Source: a virus
DNA length: 28,883 nt
Virus record (IMG/VR): IMGVR_UViG_3300034418_001756
Location: 1-28,883 of that record
Strand: one strand, 5' to 3'
Below the pieces are notes generated by a model, which was given only the letters and a program-made list of their open reading frames with translations, was not told the DNA's origin and searched no databases. Within the stretch, counting starts at the first letter, position 1, and every line of letters begins with the position of its first letter. This document shows positions 8,855-17,457 of the stretch, piece by piece. The position numbers and the translations under genes were made by a program.

Positions 8855-9478
8855 ATGAAAGAATTAAAACAAATTCAACAGGAATTAAAAAAAGAAATAC
8901 CCTACAAGTGGAGGGTGCAAAGTTTTAGTAAGCATAAGCCCCAGGCAACTTGCGTGGCTTATATTGATAGTCGAGACGTTCAAGATGTTCTTGATAAACA
9001 TTGTATTTGGTCAGATAGGTATTATTCCGTAAATGGTATGCTTTTTTGTGAGATTACAATTTATGCAGATGGTATTGAGTATAAAAGATCTGACGCCGGA
9101 AGTGAAAGTAACGTTGAAGCACAAAAAGGTCAAAGCTCAGACGCTTTTAAAAGGGCAGCAGTTAAATTCGGCATTGGTAGATTTTTGTATTCTAAAAAAA
9201 TGGTTTACTTAAAGGCGGATGCAGTAAAGACTTCAAATAATTATCCAAATGTTGTTGATAATAATGGTCAAAAGGTTTGGGATATAACAAAGCATATTAA
9301 TCAGCTTAACAATCAGCCAACTCAACCGGCGCCAACTGACGACAGAAAATGGCTAACAGAATCGCAATTCAATGCAACATTGAAAGCCACAAAAGAACAA
9401 GCCGAACAAGTTTTAAAAACTTTTAAAATGAAAAAGGTTTATAAGGATCAAATAGTAAATAAGTTTAATTTAAAATAG
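8855..9478 (+). CDS. Rad52/22-like single-strand annealing protein
   Basis: 207 aa. The conserved Rad52/Rad22-type core spans about residues 30-115: YIDSRDVQDVLDKH, then W-S-D and a beta hairpin (LFCEITIYADGIEYKRSDAG), then the hallmark helix pair with small and basic residues (EAQKGQSSDAFKRAAVKFGI, GRFLY). Such proteins form rings that anneal single-stranded DNA in phage recombination, working with a 5'-3' exonuclease. Here an SSB-like protein follows at once and a RecE-like exonuclease lies at 10329, so the set forms a complete recombination module. The C-terminal 60 residues are a linker and a basic helix, possibly a partner-binding region. Confidence 0.85.
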   Translation: MKELKQIQQELKKEIPYKWRVQSFSKHKPQATCVAYIDSRDVQDVLDKHCIWSDRYYSVNGMLFCEITIYADGIEYKRSDAGSESNVEAQKGQSSDAFKRAAVKFGIGRFLYSKKMVYLKADAVKTSNNYPNVVDNNGQKVWDITKHINQLNNQPTQPAPTDDRKWLTESQFNATLKATKEQAEQVLKTFKMKKVYKDQIVNKFNLK

Positions 9479-9485
9479 TAAAACA

Positions 9486-9755
9486 ATGAGTAAAGAAACA
9501 ATCTACTGTGGAGGCGGTAAACAAGTAAAGGGAGAGTTTGGAACTTTTAGAGCCGTAACAATTAATCTCTCAAATCTACCTGAAGAACATATTTTTGAAT
9601 ATGAGGGTAAAAAGTACATAAAGCTAAATATTAGCGATAAAAAAGAGGCGGATCAATACGGAAAAGACGTTTCTGTTTCTGTGAATACCTGGAAGCCTGA
9701 GGCCCAAACTGAGCAAGAGGCACCAAGTCAGCCAAAAAATGATTTGCCTTTTTAG
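9486..9755 (+). CDS. Small SSB-like accessory protein with NDLPF tip
   Basis: 89 aa, seven bases after the Rad52-like gene and ended by a terminator. The N-terminal 65 residues are a small beta-rich domain (YCGGGKQVKGEFGTFRAVTI, then FEYEGKKYIKLNISDKKEAD). A Gln/Pro/Glu-rich linker leads to the end PKNDLPF. Bacterial SSB proteins end in a similar acidic-Pro-Phe tip (for example DDIPF) that docks repair and replication partners. The tip and the position suggest a single-stranded-DNA-associated protein or a mimic that recruits host partners. The domain is shorter than a usual OB fold, so direct DNA binding is not proven. Confidence 0.6.
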   Translation: MSKETIYCGGGKQVKGEFGTFRAVTINLSNLPEEHIFEYEGKKYIKLNISDKKEADQYGKDVSVSVNTWKPEAQTEQEAPSQPKNDLPF

Positions 9756-9774
9756 GTAATTGACAAACAAAAAG

Positions 9775-9808
9775 AAAAAGCGGTTTCAAATTGGAATCGC
9801 TTTTTTTT
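9775..9808 (+). terminator. Rho-independent terminator after the SSB-like gene
   Basis: AAAAAGCGGTTTC (9775-9787) pairs with GGAATCGC and the T run (9793-9808) across the loop AAATT, with two wobble pairs. The A-tract and T-tract extend the stem. Copy 2 of the early promoter block follows immediately. Confidence 0.85.
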
Positions 9809-9810
9809 AT

Positions 9811-9850
9811 AAATTATTTTTTTAATTGAAAGTATTTTTTTAATTTAGGC
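9811..9850 (+). promoter_or_regulatory. Early promoter, copy 2 of a duplicated element
   Basis: 40 bases matching 8590-8629 at 32 positions, with TAATTTAG (9841-9848) in place of TATTTTTG. Both copies sit just after a terminator and 20-30 bases before a start codon, so they look like two promoters of one regulon driving the two halves of the early module. Confidence 0.65.
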
Positions 9851-9876
9851 GAATATTAACAATAAATTTTAAAAAA

Positions 9877-9996
9877 GTGGAAAACAAACTTATTGAATTT
9901 TTAACAATGCAAGTTGAGGCATTACGACAACAAAACGAAAAACTTCAACAAATTTTAAAAGAACAAACAGATTACATCTGCGAAAATAATTTATAA
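9877..9996 (+). CDS. Microprotein, coiled-coil, GTG start
   Basis: 39 aa with a GTG start (VENKLIEFLTMQVEALRQQN), the first frame after promoter copy 2. It is one amphipathic Gln/Leu-rich helix with heptad spacing (L, L, L, I) and a short end, CENNL. It ends three bases before the next ATG at 10000, and the tight packing supports real translation. Function is unknown; dimer formation is likely from the heptads. Confidence 0.45.
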   Translation: MENKLIEFLTMQVEALRQQNEKLQQILKEQTDYICENNL

Positions 9997-9999
9997 ATT

Positions 10000-10197
10000 A
10001 TGGCAAAGTATCAATTACGCATTGAAAGTGACTGCGGTCAGCGTGAGACTTTCACAAGTGGGGAAACAGTCAAAGAATGTATTGACAAATTAAAAGACTA
10101 TCACACCTTTGGGGAATTTGAGAGAAACTTTTTCACAAAAAAGGGTGAAGAAAGATTAAACAAAGAGTTGAATAGTGGATGGTACATTAACCTTTAA
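10000..10197 (+). CDS. Small hypothetical early protein
   Basis: 65 aa, soluble and charged (QLRIESDCGQRETFTSGETV, then KDYHTFGEFERNFFTKKGEE). No motif was recognised. It lies in the tightly packed early operon, three bases after the preceding stop, and is followed by another microgene 12 bases on. The single Cys and the beta-alpha pattern give no function. Confidence 0.55.
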   Translation: MAKYQLRIESDCGQRETFTSGETVKECIDKLKDYHTFGEFERNFFTKKGEERLNKELNSGWYINL

Positions 10198-10209
10198 AAA
10201 CAAATAGAT

Positions 10210-10326
10210 ATGGAAATAGTAGGTTTATATGAATTTAATGACGTATATCAAGTTATAGACGAAAATACAACCGTATTGTTTCAAGGTAGTAAATTAGATT
10301 GTATTAAATATATAGAAAACAAATAG
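10210..10326 (+). CDS. Microprotein of the early operon
   Basis: 38 aa (MEIVGLYEFNDVYQVIDENT ...). It is preceded by the 15-base block AAACAAATAGATATG (10198-10212), repeated exactly at 10317-10331 in front of the next gene, so both starts share one context. The first copy includes the end of the previous gene region and the second includes this gene's stop (TAG). It looks like a small beta hairpin plus helix; function unknown. Confidence 0.5.
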   Translation: MEIVGLYEFNDVYQVIDENTTVLFQGSKLDCIKYIENK

Positions 10327-10328
10327 AT

Positions 10329-11111
10329 ATGCAAACAAAACAAAAAGAAATAAAAGCGTTATTTGATAGTAATGAAAAATATCATTCATCACCTGGAATA
10401 AGCGCTTCAGGTTTAAAAAAAATATTTGAAAAATCGGTTTATCATTTTATAAATCAAAAGCCTTTTGAATCTTCTGCAATGGCTTTAGGAACTGCGGTGC
10501 ATTGTGCAATGCTAGAACCGGAATTGTATTACAAAGATTTTCACGTTTTACCAAAAATAGATAGAAGAACAACTCCAGGAAAAAAACAATATGCTATTGA
10601 AATTGAAAAAGCAGAGGGAAAACAAATTGTTTCCTTTGACGATCACCAAAAAATTACTGCGATTCTTAACAACTTTAGGAATCACGATTTAGCACAAAAA
10701 TATTGCAAAGGCGAAATTGAATTGTCGCATTACTTAGAACACGAGGGTTTGCAAGTTCGTGTAAGGCCTGATTGCCTAAACAAAATTGAAAACTTTATTA
10801 GCGACGTTAAAACTTGCCAAAACAATACGCCAATGGCGTTTAAAAGAGATATTTATAAATACGGCTATCATTTACAATGTGCTTTTTATTCGGATATGTT
10901 AGGAATACCGGCTGAAAATTTTAGATTTATAGCGGTTGAAACTAATTATCCTTTTTCAGTAGAGGTTTACGGATTAAGTGAAGAAATGATTAATCAAGGC
11001 CGCAGAGCTTGGAAAAGAGCGTTTAGCGATTGGAAAATATATAAAGATACCGGAATTATTTCGGGTTACAACTGGAACGAGTTTTCAGAAGATGGAAGTT
11101 TAATATTATAA
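10329..11111 (+). CDS. RecE-like PD-(D/E)XK exonuclease
   Basis: 260 aa. It shows the features of RecE C-terminal/DUF3799-type nucleases in order: SPGISASGLKKI near 21-32, GTAVHCAMLEPE at 54-65, a glutamate in EIELSHY near 129-131, RPD at 146-148, DVKT at 159-162, and YHLQCAFYSDM at 180-190. D148, D159 and K161 are the likely metal and catalytic residues and Q183 the conserved motif-III glutamine. Such enzymes chew the 5' strand of double-stranded ends and hand the 3' strand to an annealing protein, here the Rad52-like protein at 8855. The length fits a phage-size version without the long RecE N-terminus. Confidence 0.85.
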   Translation: MQTKQKEIKALFDSNEKYHSSPGISASGLKKIFEKSVYHFINQKPFESSAMALGTAVHCAMLEPELYYKDFHVLPKIDRRTTPGKKQYAIEIEKAEGKQIVSFDDHQKITAILNNFRNHDLAQKYCKGEIELSHYLEHEGLQVRVRPDCLNKIENFISDVKTCQNNTPMAFKRDIYKYGYHLQCAFYSDMLGIPAENFRFIAVETNYPFSVEVYGLSEEMINQGRRAWKRAFSDWKIYKDTGIISGYNWNEFSEDGSLIL

Positions 11112-11254: not shown

Positions 11255-11692
11255 ATGTTAGAGCAATTAGAATTGTTGAGAAATTTAGTTATTAGGCATT
11301 TAAAACAAGATCCAAGGCAAAAAAGTCGTTTGCGTGAGGTTGTAGATGCAAAAAAAATATTTTGCTTAGTTGCTTTTAATGAAGTTAAAGGATTTAGATA
11401 CGTTCAAGTAGGTAAATTTTTAAATATGAATCACGCAACAATAGTTCACCACGTTAAAAGCGCAAAGGACTTGTTAAATTACGATCCTTATTTTAAAGAA
11501 AAATACAAGCTGATTGAAAATAATTTTTTTATGGAAAATCAAGAGGTATTAATAACTGATATTGAAAGCGAAATACACATTTTACTTTTTAGGCTAAATA
11601 AGTTAAAAGAGAAAAGAGAAAAATATTTAGCTAACGAAGAAAAACCTGAAACATTAACCCAACAAAAAAAGCCATTAATATGGATGAACTAG
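11255..11692 (+). CDS. DnaA domain IV-like DNA-binding protein
   Basis: 145 aa. Residues about 35-75 resemble the DnaA C-terminal helix-turn-helix (FCLVAFNEVKGFRYVQVGKF, then MNHATIVHHVKSAKDLL), where NHATIVHH corresponds to the DnaA signature DHSTVxHA. No AAA+ domain precedes it, so this is a stand-alone DNA-binding module. The C-terminal third is a charged helix. It lies between the exonuclease and the replication initiator, so a role in replication start or in its control is likely. A second protein with a similar HTH is at 15042. Confidence 0.65.
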   Translation: MLEQLELLRNLVIRHLKQDPRQKSRLREVVDAKKIFCLVAFNEVKGFRYVQVGKFLNMNHATIVHHVKSAKDLLNYDPYFKEKYKLIENNFFMENQEVLITDIESEIHILLFRLNKLKEKREKYLANEEKPETLTQQKKPLIWMN

Positions 11693-12459: not shown

Positions 12460-13350
12460 ATGGAAAACAAAAAAAACTATTATGCCGTAATACCGGCAGA
12501 GGTCAGATACGCTAAAAATTTAAAAGCAAACGAAAAGTTAATGTACGGCGAATTGACCGCCTTGGCAAATGAAAAAGGCTATTGCTTCGCCTCTAATGAC
12601 TATTTTTCTCAACTCTATAATGTTTCAAAATCTACCGTTTCAAGATGGATTGCAAACCTGGATCGAAATAAATTTATAAAGTTAAAAATGATTTATGAAA
12701 AAGGTACAAAACAGATTAAAGAGCGTAGAATTTATATTTCTACCCTATTGACAAAAAACGCAATACCTATTGACGAAAAAGTCAATACCCCTATTGACGA
12801 AAAGCGCAAGGTTATATATACATATAACAATAATAATAATATAAAAAAGAATAATGTACAAAATGTAAAAGCGCCAATATTTGATGAAGTTACTATTAAG
12901 GCGTTTCCACATTTTATAAGTCTTTTTCCTTTAAATTATAGACCGAAAACAGAAACACAAAAAAATAAATGGCTAGACTGTTTGAATAAAATTCAGCGCA
13001 TAGATAAATACAATTTACGAGATGTTTACAACGTGGCAAAAGATTTAAGAAATGACCAATTTTGGTCAAAAAACTTTTTAAGCATTTTAAAACTCAGAAA
13101 CACAGATAAAAACGGGATTAAGTATATTGATCGTTTTATGGAGGATTATCGTTCTAAGACTAAGCCAATAGGCTACAATAAAATAAAAGGGATTGTTGAA
13201 TATTATATTTATACCTCTCCGGCAACTGGACAAAAAGAATTAGGCGCAAAAACAAAAGGCGGTGAATTATATGAGTTTAATATTAAACAAACATTACAAA
13301 CAAACGAGTTCCAGGAACTTAAAAAATACGTTATAAATGGCAATAAGTAA
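12460..13350 (+). CDS. Phage replication initiator with N-terminal HTH
   Basis: 296 aa from the ATG at 12460; the frame also opens at 12412, but that start lies inside the promoter. The N-terminal domain reads as a winged HTH of the phage replisome organiser type (VIPAEVRYAKNLKANEKLMY, then FSQLYNVSKSTVSRWIANLD at about 49-68). A low-complexity Asn/Lys linker at about 120-136 separates it from a C-terminal domain with NKWLDCLNKIQRIDKYNL and a RFMEDY motif near 230. The linker is encoded by an AT-rich stretch preceded by three DNA repeats, as in phages whose origin lies inside the initiator gene. No helicase or primase gene was recognised in the window. Confidence 0.75.
   Translation: MENKKNYYAVIPAEVRYAKNLKANEKLMYGELTALANEKGYCFASNDYFSQLYNVSKSTVSRWIANLDRNKFIKLKMIYEKGTKQIKERRIYISTLLTKNAIPIDEKVNTPIDEKRKVIYTYNNNNNIKKNNVQNVKAPIFDEVTIKAFPHFISLFPLNYRPKTETQKNKWLDCLNKIQRIDKYNLRDVYNVAKDLRNDQFWSKNFLSILKLRNTDKNGIKYIDRFMEDYRSKTKPIGYNKIKGIVEYYIYTSPATGQKELGAKTKGGELYEFNIKQTLQTNEFQELKKYVINGNK
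12741..12809 (+). repeat. Three tandem iteron-like repeats inside the initiator gene
   Basis: Units at 12741-12763, 12764-12785 and 12786-12809 (23, 22 and 24 bases) share TACC, zero to two C, TATTGAC, then G or A, A-rich, and a (C/T)GC/TC-AA end. The first unit is read in a different codon frame (CTA TTG ACA) from the other two (CCT ATT GAC). DNA rather than protein sequence is therefore conserved. Confidence 0.8.
12810..12870 (+). other. AT-rich candidate DNA unwinding element of a replication origin
   Basis: About 60 bases that are almost all A and T follow the iterons. They start with the inverted repeat GTTATAT/ATATAAC (12811-12828) and continue into AAT repeats. Iterons plus an adjacent AT-rich stretch within the initiator gene is the layout of lambda-type origins. 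Confidence 0.6.
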
Positions 13351-13762
13351 ATGCTTATCCAAATGGCGTGAATCTGATTTGTTTGAATGGTTATCAGAAA
13401 ACTATTATAATTTATTAGTTGATACAAGTAAAAATTTTTCAAAATCTGATTGTTACGATATTGAAACAAAAAACAGAATCGAACTTAAATGCAGAGCTGC
13501 TCATTATGACAAACTAATTATTGAAAAACCTAAATACGAATATTTAATAAAAGAATCAAAAAAGTATGGCGACGTTCCAATTTACATAAATAGCACACCG
13601 AAAGGAATTTATTTATTTAATTTAAAGGATCTAAAGTTAGAATGGTTTAAAAAACCTCTACCAAAAACAACAGAGTTTAAAAACAATAATTATATTAGTA
13701 AGGAAATAGCGACAATAAATATTAATAAATCAAAACAATTAAAGTGGAATGATAAAAATTAA
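13337..13762 (+). CDS. Small PD-(D/E)XK-type nuclease-like protein
   Basis: 141 aa, overlapping the initiator stop by 14 bases. Residues about 34-53 carry FSKSDCYDIETKNRIELKCR, in which an acidic residue (D38 or D41) and E49-L-K51 make a PD-(D/E)XK core. Helices and a beta hairpin (YEYLIKESKKYGDVPIYINS) follow. The small size and the place at the end of the replication operon fit a resolvase-like or structure-specific endonuclease, or a restriction-type fold. It ends in a basic tail. The exact substrate cannot be read from the sequence. Confidence 0.6.
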   Translation: MAISKCLSKWRESDLFEWLSENYYNLLVDTSKNFSKSDCYDIETKNRIELKCRAAHYDKLIIEKPKYEYLIKESKKYGDVPIYINSTPKGIYLFNLKDLKLEWFKKPLPKTTEFKNNNYISKEIATININKSKQLKWNDKN

Positions 13763-14037: not shown

Positions 14038-14664
14038 ATGAAAATAACAAACGAAGACAATATGGAGTTAATGGCAAGGTATGAAGATAACTACTTTGAC
14101 CTTGCTATTGTAGATCCGCCTTATGGTATAGGTATTGATGGGCAAAAAGAAAGTAAAAAAGGTAAAAAATCTGATAGAAAATATCATAAACAAAAACAAT
14201 GGGATAGCGCAATACCAAACAAAGAGTATTTTAAGGAATTGCAAAGGGTTTCTAAAAACCAAATTATATGGGGTGCAAATTATTTTGTAGAACACTTGTC
14301 GAAAGGAACAAAAGGGTGGATAGTTTGGTTCAAAGGTCAAATTGGTTTAACAATGAGTGATTGTGAGTTAGCGTATAGTAGTTTTCAAAGAGCAACAAGA
14401 GTAGTAAACATAAATAGAGTAGATTTATTGAAACAAAAAACAATACACCCAACAGAAAAACCCATACGACTTTATCAATGGTTATTAGATAATTATGCAG
14501 AAAAAGGCGATAAGATTTTAGACACTCACTTGGGTTCAGGTTCTATTGCTATTGCTTGTCATAATTTAGGTTATGATTTAACTGCTTGTGAATTAGATAA
14601 AGAGTACTTTGATGCAGCAATGAAAAGAATAAACGAACACAAACAACAAATAAGAATGTTTTAA
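14038..14664 (+). CDS. DNA amino-methyltransferase, beta class (N6-adenine or N4-cytosine)
   Basis: 208 aa. The catalytic motif IV DPPYG lies at residues 26-30, before the SAM-binding motif I (LDTHLGSGS at 161-169); this order defines the beta class. HPTEKP at 137-142 is the usual motif X-type helix lead-in, and ELD at 185-187 binds the SAM ribose. A positively charged stretch (KESKKGKKSDRKYHKQK) follows motif IV. No restriction enzyme gene is next to it, so it is an orphan phage enzyme, likely protecting DNA from host restriction. The target base cannot be decided from DPPY alone, though DPPY is most often found in adenine enzymes. Confidence 0.85.
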   Translation: MKITNEDNMELMARYEDNYFDLAIVDPPYGIGIDGQKESKKGKKSDRKYHKQKQWDSAIPNKEYFKELQRVSKNQIIWGANYFVEHLSKGTKGWIVWFKGQIGLTMSDCELAYSSFQRATRVVNINRVDLLKQKTIHPTEKPIRLYQWLLDNYAEKGDKILDTHLGSGSIAIACHNLGYDLTACELDKEYFDAAMKRINEHKQQIRMF

Positions 14665-14665
14665 T

Positions 14666-15049
14666 ATGGAATTAACAGAAAAGAAACTAGAAAAAATTAG
14701 TGGAGCAATACTAAGCTCATTTATAAACCTACACTTATTAGAAGATGCAGAGAAGATAGGTTTGTTTAGACAACGAGTAAGAAACAACATTAGACGTACT
14801 ATAAGCGATTTAAAAGAGATAGAGATAAACTACTATAACAAGATAGAAGAAGTTGATGAGAAAGAGCTAGGAGATAAACTAACTGCAAACAAACTAATTT
14901 TTCTTGATTGGGTATTAAATAAGTTTGACTTTAATGACTTTTGTAAGATACAAGAAGTATGTCTTGCTTATGAAGCAGACAAAGAAAGAATAACACAAGT
15001 AACAGATGAAGTATTAATTAATAATGGAGCAGAACAAATAGATGAGTAG
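14666..15049 (+). CDS. Hypothetical helical phage protein
   Basis: 127 aa, one base after the methyltransferase stop and overlapping the next gene by eight bases. It is mostly helical and charged (LTEKKLEKISGAILSSFINL ... LFRQRVRNNIRRTISDLKEI). I do not recognise a motif. Its coupling to the DnaA-like HTH gene that follows suggests the two act together, perhaps in replication or gene control. Confidence 0.6.
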   Translation: MELTEKKLEKISGAILSSFINLHLLEDAEKIGLFRQRVRNNIRRTISDLKEIEINYYNKIEEVDEKELGDKLTANKLIFLDWVLNKFDFNDFCKIQEVCLAYEADKERITQVTDEVLINNGAEQIDE

Positions 15050-15593
15050 ATATAATTACAATAGACAAGCAGCAGAAGAATTAGTAAATGACTTTTGTGA
15101 GATAACAAAATTAAATATATTTGATAATTCACGTTCAAATGATAAAGCATCCTTTAGAGCATTACTATACAAAGTATTAAATGAAATAAACGGAATGAAT
15201 GATAGAATGATATCAGACTGGTTTGCTGAAAAAGGTGTAAAAAGAAATAGGTCAAGCATATTTCACGCATTAAAAAAGATAGACGTATATTACGATAGCT
15301 TTACAAGATTTAGAAATGTTTACGATATTTATTTCAATGACAAGAAAGAAGAAACAATAAGAAAAGAAAGAGCAAGAATAGAGCGTTTAAAGAAGAAAAC
15401 AAAGTCTATTAAGCAAATCATATTAAACAGAGAAAAAGATAGCTTAGCGTTCTTAATAGATACTATACCAGACAATAAAAGAGATGAGATTTATGAGATG
15501 GTAAACCTAAGAGTAAAATCTTGGCAATGGAAAAGCAAAGATAAATGTGAAGTAATAGAGTGTAGTACATCAATGGAAGGTATGAGCTGGTAA
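15042..15593 (+). CDS. DnaA domain IV-like HTH protein with basic coiled-coil
   Basis: 183 aa. Residues about 5-75 (EELVNDFCEITKLNIFDNSR ... ISDWFAEKGVKRNRSSIFHA) show an N-terminal helix, a middle part and a DnaA-like HTH in which RNRSSIFHALKKI stands where DnaA has DHSTVxHAxxKI. A strongly basic helix follows (RIERLKKKTKSIKQIILNRE). This is the second protein of this type in the window (compare 11255) but the two share little beyond the HTH. It is likely DNA-binding. The stop is followed without a gap by the left end of the hairpin-rich cassette. Confidence 0.6.
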   Translation: MSRYNYNRQAAEELVNDFCEITKLNIFDNSRSNDKASFRALLYKVLNEINGMNDRMISDWFAEKGVKRNRSSIFHALKKIDVYYDSFTRFRNVYDIYFNDKKEETIRKERARIERLKKKTKSIKQIILNREKDSLAFLIDTIPDNKRDEIYEMVNLRVKSWQWKSKDKCEVIECSTSMEGMSW

Positions 15594-16199: not shown

Positions 16200-16673
16200 A
16201 TGTTAGAGAAGATATTTGAATCTCATAATAAGTGGATAAACACCACATTAAAGTTTGGATGCAATAGAGAAGAAGCAGAGGATATTGTTTCTAATATGTA
16301 TCTTGTTATTGGCAAGATGCTTAAAAAAGGATTAGATATAACTTATGGAGATGAAGTAAATTATTACTACATTTACCTCACATTAAGAACATCTTTTCTA
16401 CAAATGAAAAACAGACAAAAGAAACAAAACAAGATATCACTAGACTTAGTACTTGATTTAGAATCTGGAGAGTATATTGATTTTAATGATGCAAATGATT
16501 CTGTTGAACAAGAGCTGAGTAAATTACATTGGTACGATAGAAAGATTTATAATCTTATACAAGATGAATATAGTATAACAGAACTATCAAAGAAAACAAA
16601 TATTACATATCATTCATTGTATAATACATACAGAAAGGTAAAAGATAGATTAAAAGAAAAATTAAAAGAATGA
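16200..16673 (+). CDS. Small sigma-like factor
   Basis: 157 aa. Residues about 8-42 (HNKWINTTLKFGCNREEAED, IVSNMYLVIGKM) match a sigma-70 region 2-like helix pair with the AEDIV motif. Residues about 110-155 (LHWYDRKIYNLIQDEYSITE, then LSKKTNITYHSLYNTYRKVK) look like the region 4 HTH. The size fits a minimal phage sigma of the ECF type. It would redirect host RNA polymerase to phage promoters; the TATTATATAATTAT motifs found only in this half of the window are candidate targets. The upstream 80 bases are AT-rich with TATTATATTGTTGCAAATA. No anti-sigma gene was recognised. Confidence 0.7.
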   Translation: MLEKIFESHNKWINTTLKFGCNREEAEDIVSNMYLVIGKMLKKGLDITYGDEVNYYYIYLTLRTSFLQMKNRQKKQNKISLDLVLDLESGEYIDFNDANDSVEQELSKLHWYDRKIYNLIQDEYSITELSKKTNITYHSLYNTYRKVKDRLKEKLKE

Positions 16674-16798
16674 AACTAGGAGACTTAATTGAAAGAATAA
16701 CATACTATACTGGAATCAAATGGCTATGGAAAAAACTATATCCAGATTGTAAGTGTAAAGAAAGACAAGAACAATTAAATGATATTGAACTATGGTAG
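16670..16798 (+). CDS. Small phage protein with CKC...R...LN motif
   Basis: 42 aa (MKLGDLIERITYYTGIKWLW ...), overlapping the sigma gene stop and the next start. The pattern of an N-terminal GDxIExxTxxTGIK helix and a C-terminal CKCKERQEQLN resembles a small protein widespread in Bacteroidota phages whose function is unknown. The two Cys are next to a conserved-looking Lys/Arg region and may bind metal. Confidence 0.6.
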   Translation: MKLGDLIERITYYTGIKWLWKKLYPDCKCKERQEQLNDIELW

Positions 16799-17457
16799 AA
16801 GGTAAATACAAGATACTAAATTTATATGCTTGTTTAGGTGGTAATCGATACAAGTGGAATGAAGTAAAAGAAGATATAGAGGTAACTGCTGTTGAATGGG
16901 ATGAAGAACTTGCAAGGTTATACCAAGAAAGATTCCCAAATGATAAAGTTATAGTTGCAGATGCACATAAGTATTTATTAGACCATTATAAAGAATTTGA
17001 TTTTATATGGAGTTCTCCTCCTTGTCCAACACATAGTAAAATAAATCAAACACAATATACAAGAGAGTGCTGGACACCAAGATACCCAGATATGAAATTA
17101 TATCAAGAAATTATATTTTTAGATATGTTTTTTAAAGGTAAATATGTTATTGAAAATGTTGTGCCATACTATGAGCCTTTAATTAAAGCTAATAAAAGAG
17201 GTAGGCATTTATATTGGACTAACTTTAATTTACCCAATGTTTTAAGTAATAGAGAACAACCTAAAATTAGCAGGGGATTAAATGAAACTAAAAAGTTATG
17301 CAAATTTCACGATTATGATTTTTATAGATATAAAGGAAAACAATCAAAGCAAAAGATTGCAAGAAACCTAGTGGATTACGAAGCTGGTAAAACTATCTTT
17401 GAAACTTTACTAGGAATAGAAAAACAAAACAATACAAATCAAATAAAAATGTTTTAA
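16792..17457 (+). CDS. Short C5-cytosine DNA methyltransferase-like protein
   Basis: 221 aa, overlapping the preceding small gene by seven bases. Motif I is ILNLYACLGGNRYKW (residues 8-22). The catalytic motif IV is SSPPCPTHSKIN, with Cys78 as nucleophile. Motif VI is YVIENVVPY (118-126). The end, NLVDYEAGKTIFETLLG, fits motif X. The space between motifs VI and X is only about 70 residues, so there is little room for a usual target recognition domain, and the family's usual length is over 300 aa. It may be a minimal orphan methyltransferase or a modified descendant. Catalytic residues look intact, so an active enzyme is likely. Confidence 0.75.
   Translation: MVEGKYKILNLYACLGGNRYKWNEVKEDIEVTAVEWDEELARLYQERFPNDKVIVADAHKYLLDHYKEFDFIWSSPPCPTHSKINQTQYTRECWTPRYPDMKLYQEIIFLDMFFKGKYVIENVVPYYEPLIKANKRGRHLYWTNFNLPNVLSNREQPKISRGLNETKKLCKFHDYDFYRYKGKQSKQKIARNLVDYEAGKTIFETLLGIEKQNNTNQIKMF

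Follow-up and report, generated by a model that had tools for sequence, protein, structure and literature searches.

A probable replication origin of tandem iterons within the linker-coding part of an HTH_36-type phage initiator gene

Introduction

In the established scheme of iteron origins, the iterons are bound by an HTH domain, A+T-rich DNA is melted, and the replisome is recruited. The initiator of lambdoid phages binds direct repeats in its own gene as the origin (PMC7466680), TP901-1 ORF13 and Tuc2009 Rep2009 bind direct repeats inside their own genes, which serve as the origin (PMC8965321), and oriL of SPP1, in gene 38, is a further case of this kind (PMC6316719). Among plasmids, the origin boxes of pSK41 Rep are found in the linker-coding center of rep; in pPR9 Rep, a ~500-bp block containing the HTH_36 domain and the origin has taken the place of the corresponding pSK41 block and supports replication, and the pPR9-type rep region replicates autonomously (PMC5703833).

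The viral DNA in this study (28,883 nucleotides, the whole of which is referred to as the window; IMG/VR record IMGVR_UViG_3300034418_001756) contains an initiator gene in which a first-pass annotation had placed a candidate origin. The best reading of our comparisons is an initiator-embedded iteron origin, a kind already known from λ O, TP901-1/Tuc2009, and pSK41/pPR9; what is new here is a set of comparisons suggesting that helix and repeats together form a transferable specificity cassette.

Results

Initiator gene and its protein

The initiator gene (12460–13350, plus strand) encodes a protein of 296 amino acids with a winged HTH (Pfam HTH_36; E=6e-13), a disordered linker, and a helical C-terminal part. 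The start codon (ATG at 12460) agreed with the N-terminus MENKKNYY conserved among the homologues. Residues 20–73 matched HTH_36 (PF13730) with 48.8 bits (Pfam gathering score cut-off, 25), and PHROGs matches were to replication initiation and DnaD-like helicase loader families. No Pfam match was obtained at E<=0.1 for Phage_rep_O (PF04492), nor for RepA_N (PF06970), although the N-terminal fold was closest to RepA-type domains.

The winged-HTH DNA-binding domain (residues 1–94; 12460–12741, plus strand) was assigned from an AlphaFold model and a PDB fold match: helices at residues 23–34, 46–53, and 57–69, the last of which is the predicted recognition helix (KSTVSRW..; 12628–12666, plus strand), and wing strands at 74–79 and 86–92. 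The best PDB fold matches of the N-terminal model were the initiator domains 4pt7, 4pql, and 5kbj, which we take to be RepA_N-type domains of staphylococcal plasmids. A full-profile sequence search of solved structures gave general winged-HTH regulators and chance matches only. The C-terminal domain (residues 139–296; 12874–13347, plus strand) was modeled as a helical part (143–226) and a small mixed part (245–292), and its model had no PDB fold match. This domain was strongly conserved while the N-terminal domains paired with it differed, and, together with remote and weak PHROG matches (DnaD-like loader, replisome organizer, and λ O-like families), it is proposed to recruit the host helicase or primase.

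Between the two domains, pLDDT was <50 exactly for residues 95–138. This predicted disordered stretch corresponds to bases 12742–12873 (plus strand), nearly identical to the limits originally given for the candidate origin, and holds all of the putative origin elements described below.

Iterons in the linker-coding region

Three tandem repeats had been reported by the first-pass annotation, and these were found as described: TATTGAC occurs at 12746, 12768, and 12792 (spacing of 22 and 24), in a repeat family of 21 nt in three copies with 81–90% identity to the first copy. The core recognized at that time was half of a 20-bp dyad, TATTGAC-N6-GTCAATA. Iteron 2 (TATTGACGAAAAAGTCAATA; 12768–12787, plus strand) is a perfect dyad with 7-bp arms around GAAAAA, and is the sole exact match to the dyad within the window. 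Two mismatches were found in iteron 1 (TATTGACAAAAAACGCAATA; 12746–12765, plus strand) and four in iteron 3 (TATTGACGAAAAGCGCAAGG; 12792–12811, plus strand), the degenerate right arm of which adjoins the A+T stretch; the imperfect right arms of iterons 1 and 3 were counted against the origin reading. The array was the strongest triple repeat of the whole window (score of 53; next, 44), and the tandem iterons lie within the initiator gene between the DNA-binding and C-terminal domains. No second iteron cluster was detected in the window, in which one dyad with two mismatches (at 2558) was taken as chance in A+T-rich DNA.

Since the spacing of 22 is not a multiple of three and that of 24 is, repeat 1 is read in a different codon frame from repeats 2 and 3, as had been proposed. 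The three-copy score was 53/63, while the maximum among 2000 synonymous recodings of the linker was 48, with none reaching 53. When repeats 1 and 2, in different frames, were considered alone (18/21), the maximum was 17 and none of 5000 synonymous recodings reached the observed value. The earlier proposal of selection at the DNA level was borne out by the failure of all 2000 recodings to reproduce the repeats and by reduced synonymous divergence in the iteron codons of homologues (see below).

These data bear on the alternative that the repeats encode a needed linker peptide, PIDEK, the DNA similarity being a by-product. Repeats 2 and 3 do encode PIDEK in the same frame, but repeat 1 encodes LLTKN in the other; furthermore, the similarity was never recovered by synonymous recoding, synonymous sites are conserved, the linker is predicted to be disordered, and, in the homologue L018, the linker peptide changes along with the helix. 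This alternative is already contradicted, and we regard it as highly improbable. Equally small is the probability that the dyads act in RNA, as hairpins through which translation of the initiator gene or the stability of its transcript is controlled: iteron 2, as a perfect inverted repeat, could be read in this manner, but the match between arms is imperfect in iterons 1 and 3, an Rfam search for an RNA element gave no match, and the DNA motif tracks the recognition helix of the protein.

A+T-rich element and other origin signals

The iterons are directly adjoined by an easily melted A+T-rich stretch, a candidate DNA-unwinding element (12811–12870). It contains the least stable 45-base stretch in the window: the 45 steps from 12813 had the weakest nearest-neighbor stacking of 28838 window positions. 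The first-pass description of this stretch as almost pure A+T was slightly too strong (A+T of 91% in 45 bases and 88% in 60). An inverted repeat noted there, GTTATAT-ATAC-ATATAAC (12811–12828), is present, but among homologues occurred only in L002, L003, and L037, which are identical to the window sequence over this stretch. It was dropped as an origin element and, judged from this distribution, is incidental.

GC skew, suggested earlier as a check, showed no turning point at 12.7–12.9 kb; it was positive over nearly the whole window, and is weak evidence either way with all main genes on one strand. The exact DnaA box TTATCCACA was absent from the window, and sites with one mismatch were scattered, none in the linker and the nearest at 13355. 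A promoter scan of the region gave 6 promoter-like matches vs 4.9 expected, which is the chance level.

The promoter scan is relevant to a further explanation, in which the repeats serve as an operator: by binding within its own gene, the HTH protein would block transcription (autoregulation), rather than start replication. Initiators often autoregulate, and the same binding of HTH to DNA would account for the joint exchange of helix and repeats described below. However, the array is located about 290 bases inside the gene, away from a promoter position, promoter-like matches did not exceed chance, an operator would not need the window's least stable DNA immediately after the repeats, and the phage and plasmid precedents of the same layout are origins. 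An operator is unlikely, to a somewhat lesser degree than the peptide and hairpin explanations.

Homologues and synonymous constraint

A viral scan for homologues yielded 69 loci. Homologous initiator genes without linker repeats had been named beforehand as the finding that would speak against an origin, and the result was the opposite: full-length viral homologues with such an N-terminal domain have the repeats, which are weak in the L022/L025 type, and most distant HTH_36 initiators have repeats of their own at the same place in the linker. Two large groups share repeats: group A, with the helix SKSTVSRW and iterons TATTGACGAAAAGCGCAATA, and group B, with the helix SKTS[VI]SKW and iterons TATTGAAGAAAACTTCAATA, in which both dyad arms differ from group A in concert. 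Synonymous divergence (uncorrected for kinship within each group) was 0.037 in the iteron codons vs 0.138 elsewhere in the gene in group A, and 0.027 vs 0.169 in group B. Across the homologues, the reduction at the repeats was 4–6 fold, and the windows of the gene with the lowest synonymous divergence all began at codons 98–116.

A copy with 91% identity was found in a metagenome-assembled genome of the Flavobacteriaceae, consistent with a flavobacterial phage. Other relatives (L072 and L073) were in contigs assigned to Rhodobiaceae and Woesearchaeota genomes; these are probably mis-binned phage contigs.

Exchange of helix and repeats between homologues

The closely related loci L018 and L005 are 85–100% identical upstream and 80–98% downstream of the gene, and both gene ends are mostly 93–100% identical, whereas identity is 60–80% at about nt 150–360 of the gene (57–83% when L018 is compared with L005, L006, and other group A genes). 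Protein changes in this part are confined to the recognition region (residues 51–75) and linker (95–117), and the residues between them are identical. Between these two loci, the recognition helix and the iterons both differ. In a second pair, L028 and L052, the flanks and C-terminal part are mostly 93–100% identical, whereas the sequences from the start codon to about nt 390 are non-homologous: the whole HTH, the repeats, and the AT-rich part were replaced by another HTH domain and another, GC-rich linker, with clear repeats in the relatives L047, L049, and L057. A group-B-like helix and sites were also found with a different C-terminal part (L067).

The same C-terminal domain was fused to other N-terminal HTH domains in L047–L058 and L061–L065, and in the L047–L058 set the linker repeats are GC-rich and of the type ACCGGAAAAACCG. 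In a separate, earlier repeat test, no significant triple repeat was found in L052 and L064.

Most simply read, these comparisons mean that the helix has to fit the repeats and that the two are exchanged as a pair. Among the sequence comparisons, the L018/L005 and L028/L052 exchanges are the best evidence for reading the locus as an origin.

Survey of HTH_36 initiators

HTH_36 initiators of Firmicutes, Fusobacteria, and Bacteroidota phages have such repeats at the same place. The linkers of Staphylococcus phage 77 (repeats such as TATTGACGCAAAAATCAATA) and Lactobacillus phage AB1 (TATTGACAAAAAGATCAATA) contain iterons near-identical to those of the window, and Fusobacterium and Cellulophaga phages have other repeats in the same linker. 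Among 43 non-redundant initiators (<80% identity), for which z was estimated against synonymous recoding, linker repeats at z>=3 were found in 28, a few of which are runs of AAT codons and not iterons (e.g. L104), vs 1 for a control stretch of the same size further along the genes. λ O as the positive control gave z of 5.3 in the same test.

The sites appeared to follow the recognition helix: for example, TTGAC/GTCAA was paired with T-[IV]-S-R, and TTGAAG-type sites with S-[IV]-S-[KL]. An Arg aligned with R62 went with TTGAC/GTCAA sites (13/23 vs 0/24; p 8e-6) and Lys with TTGAAG-type sites (7/13 vs 2/34), and p-values here are indicative only because the site motifs were picked after inspection of the data and kinship was left uncorrected. 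There is an about even chance, in our estimate from these sequences, that the helix and embedded iterons of HTH_36 phage initiators from several phyla make up a self-contained specificity cassette that can be exchanged and has a readable helix-to-site code, and that phages swap it to change origin specificity and thereby escape interference with their replication from related phages or resident elements.

Genes around the initiator

A recombination module upstream (8855–11111) consists of an Erf/Rad52-type annealing protein and an exonuclease VIII-like protein. It is followed by a gene for a protein of 145 amino acids (11255–11692) with an HTH similar to DnaA domain IV (Bac_DnaA_C; E=1e-4, below the Pfam cut-off) and without the ATPase domain, which might bind host DnaA boxes. 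A DnaA-like HTH motif, NRSSIFHALKKI, was also recognized by eye in the product of 15042–15593, the weak Pfam tail tube match of which looks spurious. Two DNA methyltransferase genes (14038–14664 and 16792–17457) are located around the replication region, and 16200–16673 is weakly similar to a phage sigma factor family.

Discussion

The stretch 12742–12873 is very probably a phage replication origin embedded in the linker-coding part of the initiator gene, at which we infer both binding and initiation. At the level of sequence, the repeats, the shift of frame, constraint on the DNA, the peak of instability, the predicted disordered linker, and the joint exchange may be taken as established. In the proposed mechanism, the N-terminal winged HTH, probably as a dimer on each 20-bp dyad, would bind the three iterons, which are about two helical turns apart; the bound array would strain and open the adjoining A+T-rich stretch (12811–12870); the C-terminal domain would then directly bring in the host replicative helicase or primase; and replication would begin at this site. 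Direct recruitment of the host helicase is proposed because no helicase or loader gene was recognized among the scanned genes of the window, which is possibly an incomplete genome, in which case a loader or a second origin might be located beyond it. Helix and iterons would move together by recombination as a specificity cassette.

This reading would place the origin of a little-studied marine flavobacterial phage group within about 130 bases, and the natural exchanges offer a way to test how initiator helix and origin repeats are paired. Should the helix-to-site pattern be borne out, the origins of many HTH_36 phages, and also replication incompatibility among phages, would be predictable from sequence.

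Of the known systems, TP901-1 and Tuc2009 resemble the window initiator in layout, and their host phylum differs. RepA_N initiators such as pSK41 Rep have in common with the window an N-terminal winged HTH, origin boxes in the linker-coding center of the gene, and a separate C-terminal domain; however, the window initiator has no RepA_N Pfam match, and its C-terminal model has no solved match. The first-pass annotation had likened the locus to the λ origin in layout, with unrelated sequence. The likeness in layout stands: ori-λ also has mid-gene iterons (spacing of 20–24) followed by an AT-rich stretch, and λ O and the window initiator were equally strong in the recoding test. "Unrelated" applies to the iteron sequence and the Pfam family (the N-terminus of λ O is PF04492, E=5.7e-36), but not to the C-terminal part, which has a remote PHROGs profile similarity to λ O families; λ also differs in having a separate loader, P. 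Phage 77 differs from the window in its C-terminal Phg_2220_C and in a DnaC-like loader gene next door, neither of which was found here, whereas phage 77 and phage vB_Lcr_AB1 both share with the window the HTH_36 N-terminus, the linker iterons with the TATTGAC half-site, and the AT-rich codons directly after them.
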